Shown here: positions 3,759 through 7,398 of the stretch, piece after piece
Layout: each line of letters begins with the position of its first letter
Position numbering within the stretch: the first letter of the stretch is position 1
DNA from: a virus
Length of the DNA: 64,000 nucleotides
IMG/VR virus record: IMGVR_UViG_3300044823_000365
Span: 1-64,000 of that record
Direction: 5' to 3' (one strand)
The notes under the pieces: generated by a model
The model's input: only the letters and a program-made list of their open reading frames with translations
Told to the model about the DNA's origin: nothing
Database searches by the model: none
Made by a program: the position numbers and the translations under genes

Positions 3759-4880
3759 TCAATTCGTACGCCAAAAAACCCCGCCACCTGGCAGGTCGTG
3801 GGTGTCGCTGTCGTAGGACGACAGGAAACGCCCCATGCCATCAGCCGCAACGACGTCAGTAGCCGCATCTTCCTCGTTGATCCCGGCGATCTCGATGGCC
3901 CGCTTCGCGGTCTCGTCGCCGTAGATGTCCTTCAGGTACTCCATGGGGTCTTTCAGAAGCTCGTCAACCTTCTCCTCGATCCACTCGTCGGAAGGCTCGG
4001 TCTCTTCTTTCTTGTCCCCGATCAATTCATGGCCCCCAGAATCGAACTTGCCCTCTTCGTCTTCTTCGCCTTCCCCGTTGTAGCGGGCAATCTCCCCCGG
4101 CTCCCAGCCGTAGGAATCCGGGGATTCCCTAATCATCCCCTCGACATCGGGGCGCAACCGCGCTTCAAGCGCCTCCTTGTCGATATATCCTTCAAGCCAA
4201 CTCTGCGTGAACGAGTCGGGCTCGTCCCTCAACTGCTCCCGCACCAGCGCTGTGGCGAACTCCTCGGCCGCATCGTAGGTGGGGGCGACCACGTATTCCT
4301 TGCTTCCGAAGCTGATCGTGGCGAAATTGGAAGCCTCATGCCAACCCCACATTCCTTCCTTGATTTCGAATCCGTGGGCGTGGAGGGGGTCTTCTTTCTC
4401 TAGGAACTCCATGACGGCCTCGACGGTCTTCGGGTCCGTGATCTCCGCTTCCACTTCCCTGCGGACTTCGGATTCGTCGGTTTCCATGCGAAGCTGCTCT
4501 CCCGGTTCCGGCTCCTCGGCCGGAACGGGCTCGGGCGTTTCAACCGCTTCTGGCGCTTCTTCGATCTCGGCCGGGGGAGGCTCCACGGCCGGGGGCGGGG
4601 CGGTGATGTGCGGGGCTTTTGCGGCGGGCTCGTCGCGCTTCACTTCCACGGGCTCCGGCGACGGCTGCTCGGTCGGGGCTGGTTCTGGTTCTGGTTTCTC
4701 ATCAGGCGGCGCGGCGGTCTTAGAGGCGGCAGCTTTTTCTGCGAGGTACTCCTCCTCAAGCTCATCCTCGTACGAGGCGAGGTTCTCATGGAGGGCGACA
4801 GCGTCGAGGGCGGCGTTCTTGACAGAGCGGAACTTGAACTGATCGGCGGCTTCTAGCGCCTCTTTCTTGATGTCGGCCAT
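3759..4880 (-). CDS. acidic Pro/Glu-linker protein, 373 aa, unknown function
   Basis: Start ATG at 4880 with GAGG nine bases upstream. Residues 1-50 are helical; about 55-130 are a low-complexity Pro/Glu/Ala linker; 140-240 form a compact domain (HGFEIKEGMWGWHEASNFATISFGSKEYVV, then QSWLEGYID); the remainder is highly acidic and ends with a basic FWRTN. The layout suggests two folded parts tethered by a disordered linker. No function is recognised. It is the first gene after the tmRNA terminator. Confidence 0.65.
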   Translation of the reverse strand: MADIKKEALEAADQFKFRSVKNAALDAVALHENLASYEDELEEEYLAEKAAASKTAAPPDEKPEPEPAPTEQPSPEPVEVKRDEPAAKAPHITAPPPAVEPPPAEIEEAPEAVETPEPVPAEEPEPGEQLRMETDESEVRREVEAEITDPKTVEAVMEFLEKEDPLHAHGFEIKEGMWGWHEASNFATISFGSKEYVVAPTYDAAEEFATALVREQLRDEPDSFTQSWLEGYIDKEALEARLRPDVEGMIRESPDSYGWEPGEIARYNGEGEEDEEGKFDSGGHELIGDKKEETEPSDEWIEEKVDELLKDPMEYLKDIYGDETAKRAIEIAGINEEDAATDVVAADGMGRFLSSYDSDTHDLPGGGVFWRTN

Positions 4881-4912: not shown

Positions 4913-4942
4913 CCAAAGAAAACGCCCGCTTGCGCGGGCGTT
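4913..4942 (-). terminator. intrinsic terminator of the tmRNA gene
   Basis: On the minus strand a perfect 9-bp GC-rich hairpin (AACGCCCGC / GCGGGCGTT with a GCAA loop, 4921-4942) is followed by TTCTTT. It lies just past the tmRNA coding piece and before the 3759-4880 gene. Confidence 0.85.
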
Positions 4943-4944
4943 CT

Positions 4945-5245
4945 CGAACCCATGCTTCTGTTACTAGGCGCACGGATAAAGCCCTAGCTACGGTCAGCTT
5001 TATGCTGCCGCGGCAAAAGCCATTGCTTTAGGAGCAGTGACAGTTATAGGTTCTGTGCCTGTTTTGCGGGTAGCCACAGCGGCCCGGTCCGTAAGCATTC
5101 GCAACGATCCTCCGTCGAAAGGCAATTTTCGGCCCCACAGATTGACGGTAATACTGCCGTCAATTGGTGGAGCCGGGGGGTCGCCATCCCCCGTCCGAAC
5201 TGATTATCACGGTGCTTGTTTTCTCTTACGAGAGATTTCCGAACA
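4945..5245 (-). ncRNA. ssrA: circularly permuted tmRNA (two-piece ssrA)
   Basis: Minus strand, in transcription order: a leader hairpin (TCTCT/AGAGA); the acceptor piece with a 5-bp T stem (GGGGG/CCCCC) and the 3' end CGGCTCC-ACCA at 5165; a linker that folds as an 8-bp hairpin (5141-5164); then the coding piece starting GGGGCCG at 5136 and containing TTTCGACGG. GGGGCCG pairs fully with CGGCTCC and keeps the G3-U wobble used by alanyl-tRNA synthetase. A pseudoknot (CGGG/CCCG with CTGTG/CACAG) precedes a reading frame ending APKAMAFAAAA-stop at 5002-5000, a typical protease tag end. The order acceptor-before-coding defines the permuted type, which needs cleavage into two RNAs. The exact resume codon and piece ends are uncertain, and the T loop (ATGGCGA) is atypical. 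Role: rescue of stalled ribosomes and tagging of nascent chains. Confidence 0.9.
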
Positions 5246-5251
5246 ACCTCT

Positions 5252-5280
5252 ATAATACGCTGGAAAGTCCGAAAAAGCTA
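5252..5280 (-). promoter_or_regulatory. ssrA: promoter-like site of the tmRNA, copy 2
   Basis: Read on the minus strand: TAGC, 19 bases, TATTAT. Spacing matches the other four copies exactly, though the CCCC block is GGAC here. It lies a few bases before the tmRNA leader hairpin, which supports use as its own promoter. Confidence 0.6.
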
Positions 5281-5310
5281 TAGTTTTGTGTTCAAAGGAC
5301 GCAGAGTAAG

Positions 5311-7308
5311 CTAGTCCTCCACCAAAAAATCTCGTTCCTGTCCTACCTGCATCGGTGAGTCGGATGCCATTTTGGATGCCCCAAAGAGTTTCAATTCGTC
5401 CTCGATCTTCGCCTTGCGGATTAGCGGGTTCTTCCAGCGGTTCAAATAGTCCTCGTCCCCGAGCAGCCCGCGGCCGATTTCGGCTGCAACTTGCTTATGA
5501 CCGGTATCCAGCTTGACCCCATGGGCTGCAAGGAAAACCATGACGCCGAAGGCGCGTTCCAGATCATCCGTATTGTGGATGCCGGGAATCCACTGGTCCA
5601 TGCCTTCCAGCAGGGCTTTGACCTCTTCCGCTGGCACGGGCTCCTCGAAGCCCTTGCCCAGCCCCCCGAGGAACGGCGTGCGGTATGAGTCGAGAATGTC
5701 GTGGGCGGAGTCGTTGTCGTACGACCTTTCGCCCCATGCGCCCGCAACCTTCACCTTGCCTTTTATCAGGGGACCGATAGGGGTCTTCGGATTGACCCGC
5801 AGTATCTTGGCGACGTTCTTCGCCCAGTTCGGGTCTCCGTTGCTGTAGATCAGGCCCGCCTTCTCAAGGCTCATGTCGGGCTTGAAGTTCGGGTTCTGCC
5901 CGTCAGCGATCCGGTTCAGCGCCTTCTTGAGGGCGCGCTCGCCCAGAGCTTCAGTCTCGAACCGCATGATTCGGCCGGAATGGAACCCCACGAGGTTGCC
6001 GGGGTTGTGAAGCTCGGGATCGGCTCCTTCGGTGCGGCAGATCGCATCCACAAACTCGTCAAGACCTATCCGCTTCTCTTCCACAATGGCTGCTGGCGAG
6101 TACCTTGTTGGGGCGGCGGGGTCTACAGCGCCGGGCATCAATGCTAAAAGCGCAGCGGGGAGCAGCGCCCGGTTCAACGGTCCTGCCGTCTTTTCCGTGG
6201 CTCCGTGGCAGCCGCAGCCGCCATCGGGATCGTTCTCGTGCGGGCAGCCAAAGTCCGGTGGGTGGGTGTGAATCTCGAACGGATGCCCGCAGGTGCACAT
6301 AGCAGCGGCCTTGCTCAGGCTGGCTTCGAGTTCCAAGCTTGCCGCCTTGTGCTGCCTCATTTTCTCTTCGCAGTCGGGGCAGATGCCGTGGGAGACGGGC
6401 TCGACGCCCTCCCGCATTACCTTCCCGCACCAAGCGCAGACTTCCTTGTGCTGCTCGGCGAGCTTCGCCTTGATGCCCATCCGCTTCAGTTCCGCTATGT
6501 CGTCGGTCAGTCCCGGCTTTACGGGCGCTGCTGGGGTGACTACGCGGACGGACGCCTCGTCGGCGGTGAAAATCTCAAGCTGCTCGGTGGTACGCCCCTC
6601 ATCCACCAGCTTTCCGTTCTCCTCGTGGACCGAGAAAAACGGTTCGCCTTCCGGCGCGTGGTCGATCACGATGTAATAGTCAACCCCGGATTTCGTCCAG
6701 CGCTCCTCCGTCGCGCCCGAGGGGTACCAACCGTGGGTGGAAAGAATTTCGCGCCACTCGTCGTCGATGAAACCCTTGGCGGTCTTCGTGCTGGAAACCT
6801 TGGCGATGCCGGACGGGAACAAGTCGGCGGCGGCCTTCTTGCATTTGGACATCGCCCTGACGGCTTCCTTGAGTTGGTAGGGGTTGAGTTGGTTCCTAAA
6901 GGCCCACGCTTTCACGCAGCGTGCGGTGTTCCCGAACTTTTGCAGGTAATCTACGGCGTGCTTCGCATAGCCGTTCGCATAGGCGGCAGACAAACTGTCC
7001 GTGGTGATCTTGCCTGCGTCGGTGAACAGCGGTTGCTGCTCCTCCACAAGATCGATGGATGCCGGAGCCATGTCTACGGTTGTGCCGTTGTCCCACTTGA
7101 CCCCTATGCGAACGCGGGTCTCGGGGAATGACCTGTCAATGCTGGGAAACGTCACATCGACGCTCTGCACTGTGCCGAGTGCTGCGCCGGGGTGAAAGTG
7201 GCGAACTCGGGAACCGATGGGGAACTCCTTGAGCATGTAGGCCTTGAGTTCGCGAAGGTCACGTGGTTCTTTAGGATTGGAACCGCTTTTTAGGAGAGAA
7301 TCGCGCAT
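5311..7308 (-). CDS. multidomain protein with zinc motifs and lysozyme-like segment, 665 aa
   Basis: Start ATG at 7308 chosen because GAGG lies seven bases upstream (an in-frame start at 7329 lacks one). An N-terminal part (about 20-100) is beta-rich. Near 290-320 is a CxxC...CxxC zinc knuckle (CAWCGK, CPDC), then a His/Cys-rich patch (CTCGHPFEIHTH, CPHEN, CGCHG). Around 420-500 is a lysozyme/transglycosylase-like segment: an acidic residue in CRTEGAD, then HNPGNLVGF, then GRIMRFETEALGERAL. A later segment (GAWGERSYDNDSAHDIL) resembles the DUF4259 start. It may be a wall-degrading or virion-associated enzyme; the active-site assignment is by pattern only. Ends with TAG before the tmRNA promoter. 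Confidence 0.6.
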   Translation of the reverse strand: MRDSLLKSGSNPKEPRDLRELKAYMLKEFPIGSRVRHFHPGAALGTVQSVDVTFPSIDRSFPETRVRIGVKWDNGTTVDMAPASIDLVEEQQPLFTDAGKITTDSLSAAYANGYAKHAVDYLQKFGNTARCVKAWAFRNQLNPYQLKEAVRAMSKCKKAAADLFPSGIAKVSSTKTAKGFIDDEWREILSTHGWYPSGATEERWTKSGVDYYIVIDHAPEGEPFFSVHEENGKLVDEGRTTEQLEIFTADEASVRVVTPAAPVKPGLTDDIAELKRMGIKAKLAEQHKEVCAWCGKVMREGVEPVSHGICPDCEEKMRQHKAASLELEASLSKAAAMCTCGHPFEIHTHPPDFGCPHENDPDGGCGCHGATEKTAGPLNRALLPAALLALMPGAVDPAAPTRYSPAAIVEEKRIGLDEFVDAICRTEGADPELHNPGNLVGFHSGRIMRFETEALGERALKKALNRIADGQNPNFKPDMSLEKAGLIYSNGDPNWAKNVAKILRVNPKTPIGPLIKGKVKVAGAWGERSYDNDSAHDILDSYRTPFLGGLGKGFEEPVPAEEVKALLEGMDQWIPGIHNTDDLERAFGVMVFLAAHGVKLDTGHKQVAAEIGRGLLGDEDYLNRWKNPLIRKAKIEDELKLFGASKMASDSPMQVGQERDFLVED

Positions 7309-7398
7309 CTGTGCCTCTATTAAAAGCAAACAAAAACAGTAAACTCAAAAGGCAACTGTTGAACTCATTGAAAAGGACTACCCACGAGGAGCTTTTTA

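Follow-up and report, generated by a model that had tools for sequence, protein, structure and literature searches.

The window analysed here, 64,000 nucleotides long, is the first 64 kb of the 155,256-bp IMG/VR record IMGVR_UViG_3300044823_000365 (G000), a phage genome encoding a portal protein, a clamp loader and DNA polymerase A. On its minus strand, at approximately 5282-4918 and between same-strand genes at 5311-7329 and 3759-4880, an acceptor piece is followed by a 28-nt spacer and then by a coding piece, which is the permuted gene order of a two-piece tmRNA (Table 1). An earlier note had read the locus as a circularly permuted phage tmRNA with the acceptor ahead of the coding piece, perfectly paired acceptor strands with a G3-U signal, a promoter-like TAGC-19-TATTAT and a 9-bp terminator. 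All of these elements were recovered: the acceptor stem is paired at 7/7 positions, carries G3-U70 and is followed by a CCA end, the promoter-like site lies at 5280-5252, and there is a terminator at 4945-4918, although its stem measures 12 bp rather than 9 bp. The tag frame ends in small nonpolar residues and a stop, and the resume codon is GTC, not GCN. The coding piece alone folded no better than shuffled sequences (z -0.37), and a generic sigma-70 scan found no promoter at the gene.

Table 1. Features of the two-piece tmRNA gene, in window coordinates.
Feature	Position	Strand	Basis
Promoter-like site TATAGC-19-TATTAT, with GGACTTTC in the spacer	5252..5282	-	Motif in relatives
GUAAG, 5' strand of the helix joining the pieces	5225..5229	-	Pairs with CUUAC 5095-5091 in RF04321 alignment, no mismatches
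Acceptor piece: T stem GGGGG/CCCCC, T-loop ATGGCGA, CGGCTCC, ACCA	5165..5200	-	Alignment, stem pairing
T stem strands	5192-5188/5180-5176	-	5/5 pairs
T-loop ATGGCGA	5187-5181	-	TTCGANT instead in all seven relatives
Acceptor 3' strand CGGCTCC-ACCA	5175-5165	-	Stem pairing
Intervening spacer, 28 nt, predicted to be removed	5137..5164	-	Between acceptor strands; processing by analogy with known two-piece tmRNAs
Acceptor 5' strand GGGGCCG	5130..5136	-	7/7 pairs, G3-U70 identity pair
D-region AAAATTGCCT and TTCGAC (5119-5114)	5114..5129	-	CC at 5122-5121 in place of the GG of relatives
CUUAC, 3' strand of the joining helix	5091..5095	-	RF04321 alignment
Tag frame VTAPKAMAFAAAA-stop, resume codon GTC after TATAACT	5000..5041	-	Stop at 5002-5000; homologous sister-phage tags
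Coding-piece 3' motif CGCCTAGTAACAGAA	4956..4970	-	Aligned to alpha_tmRNA consensus ACCuGGCAACAGAA; G005 shares it, G006 has a related form
Intrinsic terminator, 12-bp stem, GCAA loop, T tract	4918..4945	-	Nearly identical terminator in G007

The gene scored 43.4 bits against the Rfam model tmRNA_permuted (RF04321; cut-off 47, E 1.9e-7) and 29.4 bits against alpha_tmRNA (RF01849; E 6.6e-7), both E-values being calculated for this stretch. The tmRNA region reached no gathering cut-off in an Rfam scan of the whole window, and ARAGORN did not report it. The covariance search proposed in the earlier note nevertheless leaves the identification standing: the score misses one cut-off by 3.6 bits, the E-value is strong, and the sister-phage copies do pass. 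A covariance model built from eight phage copies, the window copy included, gave 108 bits in the window and no other credible match in G000; the clade's own tmRNA model found none in G014 or G024. Judged from sequence, the window match is above chance, as relatives score over the cut-off and have a homologous tag and 3' end. Homology places the gene firmly among the permuted tmRNAs, as a variant that falls short of the Rfam cut-off and lacks the usual elbow. Low RF04321 matches in G012, G029/G030, G018 and G020 proved, when the sequences were inspected, to be adjoining tRNAs or fragments of one-piece tmRNA; those in G009 and part of G005 were dismissed by score as adjoining tRNAs or one-piece tmRNA pieces.

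Relatives were gathered through DNA polymerase A, yielding an IMG/VR jumbo-phage clade with records of up to 463 kb and one isolate, Tunturiibacter phage Tunturi_5 (308,711 bp, circular, PP885688). One record, G001, is identical to G000 and is a duplicate. Searches of phage DNA with the tmRNA region or with 24 kb of the window gave no match, and a DNA polymerase profile run against bacterial genomes found no relative, hence no host was assigned by polymerase. Permuted tmRNA scored over the cut-off in seven related phages (51.6-86.4 bits): Tunturi_5, G005, G006, G007, G011 and the later-found G018 and G025 (85.1 and 69.6 bits for this pair). The Tunturi_5 gene, which has a long tag, occupies an unannotated gap (PP885688.1:157899-158195) and goes unmentioned in the paper on that phage.

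Across the eight phages, acceptor and T stems were paired in 96/96 cells, 21 of which had changes on both sides, compared with 78% paired and 7.5 double-change cells for shuffles and at most 57% and 5 cells for slid partners. All eight have a 7/7 acceptor stem and the invariant G3-U70 (U-G) pair. The tags of G000, G005, G006, G007 and G025 are clearly homologous, with APKA, an Ala-rich end and a conserved stop position; sister-phage counterparts of VTAPKAMAFAAAA are ATAPKALAMAAAA, ANAPKAMAMAAAA and ANAPKAMAAHA. Upstream, ACTT(Y)..TANNAT was present in 7/8 phages, and a terminator-like stem followed the gene in the relatives inspected. Because stems, U-G pair, tags, promoter-like motif and terminators are shared across the clade, the permuted tmRNA gene is, on this comparison, old and kept in these phages. 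Tags in G011 and Tunturi_5 were unusually long, at about 30 or more residues. G000 holds a second copy of the promoter-like motif, with a TTGACA-like -35; a phage-wide promoter motif was not established (3 sites v 1.2 expected).

The T-loop and D-loop of the window copy depart from consensus, a point the earlier note had overlooked. Contacts between a TTCRA T-loop and a D-loop GG are thought important for tmRNA folding; the usual elbow contacts are G18-Psi55 and G19-C56, and G19-C56 is regarded as universal. This elbow, typical without being a strict criterion, was present in 7/7 homologues, all with T-loop TTCGANT and a GG one base ahead of TTCGAC or its equivalent. Only the window copy differs, with ATGGCGA in the T-loop and, at the place of the GG, CC (GCC). 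The altered loops are complementary in register, permitting 19C-56G, 18C-57G and 17G-58C. As a 3-bp match anywhere between two such loops would be expected about 0.6 times by chance (our own estimate), only the in-register match carries weight, with a chance of about 1 in 64 given that both loops changed, and in one lineage only. We rate the complementarity as suggestive. Among other viral contigs, ATGGCGA as the loop of a paired T stem was found only in the duplicate record G001, the identity of which makes an assembly error less likely, though the two records are perhaps not independent.

Outside the window, at G000:75650-75974, lies a full-length class A RNase P RNA (209 bits v cut-off 100), the match covering positions 1-367 with all conserved motifs tested kept. 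In these respects it is like bacterial class A RNase P RNA (RF00010); it differs in sitting inside a tRNA array, among the 24 tRNA-like hits of G000 and between tRNA-Cys and tRNA-Gly, and in that no RnpA was found in G000. With the duplicate G001 excluded, RNase P RNA was present in 11 clade phages (G000, G005, G006, G007, G011, G014, G018, G020, G024, G025 and G034). In most carriers it is flanked by tRNA-Cys/Asp and tRNA-Gly(UCC) in the same array, a shared position that speaks against contamination. On the polymerase tree, a single gain within a subclade of 18 rows (fork support 92/89) would account for this distribution, the members without it being incomplete records; none was found in circular Tunturi_5 or in long outgroup records. 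SmpB was found neither in the 32 clade records nor in G000 and, with RnpA also not found in G000, host proteins would be needed. In G020, approximately 450 nt separate the RNase P RNA from a one-piece tmRNA upstream of it.

RNase P RNA counts as a hallmark of cellular genomes and has served as a genome-completeness check, in which megaphages showed only tRNAs and a tmRNA (PMC8172020). We found no report of a phage RNase P RNA in the literature searched, which is no proof that none exists, and the term is absent from two jumbo-phage overviews. An 'Acinetobacter phage' match was rejected as bacterial chromosome beside a prophage. MW495066.1 (Microcystis phage MaAM05, a 274-kb record) contains an unannotated RNase P RNA (251.8 bits, 1369-1768 of the stretch examined); the PhiMa05 genome paper lists purB, lysU and fusA, and a bacterial origin of the MaAM05 stretch is possible.

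Tunturi_5 grows on Acidobacteriota, and from kinship we infer this phylum as the likely host of G000. We examined 41 Acidobacteriota genomes, reached from a 16S pattern typical of the phylum and including Edaphobacter lichenicola M8UP30, presumably the species now named Tunturiibacter lichenicola. None had a permuted tmRNA over the cut-off (0/41). ARAGORN reported a one-piece tmRNA in 19/20 Acidobacteriota loci, with tags such as AEPQFALAA, and the four loci checked scored 164-196 bits with RF00023. Five other clade phages carry a one-piece tmRNA (G020, G021, G026, G034 and G037); because the G021 tag, AEPQLALAA, resembles Acidobacteriota tags, these genes were probably taken from hosts. In the DNA polymerase tree the permuted form extends across the inner clade and the one-piece genes fall in a nested group, which fits an old permuted gene later replaced by the one-piece form; the alternative is repeated swaps. 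The phage permuted genes match beta and alpha models and share a 3' ACAGAA motif, and this short motif and the model scores point to an ancestry shared with the permuted genes of proteobacteria, not to a fresh permutation.

The same matches and motif would also fit capture of the gene, which the earlier note offered as one option, from a host with permuted tmRNA (an alpha- or betaproteobacterium or a cyanobacterium), and G000 is placed with Acidobacteriota phages by kinship only. We consider this very unlikely, as permuted genes are distributed over the polymerase-tree clade, including Tunturi_5 on its Acidobacteriota host. Host capture is unsupported if G000 and its kin infect Acidobacteriota, as the one cultured relative does; with no permuted gene over the cut-off in the 41 genomes of this phylum and the one-piece form in 19 of the 20 loci, simple capture is unlikely. 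The spread over the clade instead indicates a gene old in phages, the first donor of which may have been such a bacterium. A different doubt concerns function: a decaying or dominant-negative tmRNA, its elbow lost, would be inactive or compete with host tmRNA. Loss of the elbow consensus in the window copy alone and the low RF04321 score are in keeping with this, and there is a precedent in phage DS6A, the CDS-less tmRNA form of which is reported to be inactive or to compete with host tmRNA (PMC11915505). However, 12/12 stem pairs, G3-U70, ACCA, TTCGAC, the tag frame, the promoter-like site and the terminator have been kept despite sequence divergence, and the loop changes are complementary in register, not random; we therefore regard this reading, whether the tmRNA is broken or tuned so as to hinder host rescue, as unlikely.

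The reading we favour, and hold to be probable, is a real and probably working two-piece tmRNA of a Tunturi_5-like jumbo phage, which would use host SmpB and belong to a phage RNA-processing and translation set. Weighing against it are the divergent elbow, the RF04321 score below its cut-off, the ARAGORN miss, the GTC resume codon and the shuffle-like folding of the coding piece. Gene order, covarying stems, tag frame and homologues are observed; the steps from transcription through processing and charging to tagging, by analogy with known two-piece tmRNAs, and the proposed purpose would be as follows. A single transcript from the gene's own promoter would end at the terminator at 4918. RNase P would cut ahead of GGGGCCG and 3' trimming would expose ACCA, leaving acceptor and coding pieces bound to each other through the 7-bp acceptor stem and one further helix. 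Host AlaRS would charge the RNA via G3-U70, host SmpB and EF-Tu would deliver it to stalled ribosomes, and the ribosome would append A-VTAPKAMAFAAAA, marking the product for host proteases. With the tRNA array and RNase P RNA, the tmRNA may form a phage RNA set sustaining translation during infection. The likely gain would be rescue of ribosomes stalled on host or phage messages degraded in infection, and the phage RNase P RNA would increase maturation capacity for the 20-odd tRNAs and the tmRNA. Because this RNA keeps its place in jumbo phages, next to the tRNAs and tmRNA that depend on it, the idea that phages take over RNA processing becomes open to test. Tunturi_5 has the permuted form and its host genus the one-piece form, so that phage and host tmRNA can be distinguished by their sequences within a single infection.

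A bolder reading, which we think doubtful, joins two proposals: that RNase P RNA, tRNA array and two-piece tmRNA form a self-made RNA-processing and rescue module of the clade, partly replacing host functions, and that the window tmRNA has a rewired elbow in which 17G-58C, 18C-57G and 19C-56G replace G18-Psi55 and G19-C56. If true, the window would encode a tmRNA with altered recognition, its elbow formed by Watson-Crick kissing contacts. The altered elbow is a probe of how far the universal G19-C56 contact can change.

Phage two-piece tmRNAs have been published for methylophage Melnitz and pelagiphages, a survey of 18,146 phage genomes having yielded 53 two-piece structures (PMC9004378), so the novelty implied in the earlier note was overstated, and a bare two-piece phage tmRNA is a further member, not a new kind. 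The present gene resembles these in being a permuted ssrA on a lytic-type phage genome. The Melnitz ssrA, however, is alphaproteobacterial-like, from lineages with permuted forms, whereas here the host phylum of the cultured relative has the one-piece form, and RNase P RNA is found in the phages as well. With alpha-, beta- and cyanobacterial permuted tmRNAs (RF01849, RF01850, RF01851, merged as RF04321) it shares gene order, the G3-U70 acceptor, TTCGAC, an Ala-ending tag and 3' ACAGAA; the window copy differs from them in its T-loop ATGGCGA and D-loop CC, and G011 and Tunturi_5 differ in their long tags. Huge phages likewise encode trans-translation parts, namely tmRNA and SmpB genes (Al-Shayeb 2020, PMC7162821), but in this clade SmpB was found in 0/32 records, and eight phages have a permuted tmRNA, five a one-piece form. 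What deserves follow-up is that the tmRNA form does not match the host's, that the phages have an RNase P RNA, and that the elbow has changed.

Other features of the record were noted in passing. A tRNA-like gene on the minus strand of the window (1731-1659) has a CUA (amber) anticodon, a D-loop without GG and a six-base T-loop, TCATAT. A HEARO RNA (12921-12708, minus strand, 120 bits) immediately precedes an RRXRR-HNH (IscB-like) nuclease gene (12682-11414, minus strand). Inteins or homing-endonuclease domains are present in several genes, including that for DNA polymerase A (G000:79913-81631, 86187-89027, 98213-100561 and 127371-131432).
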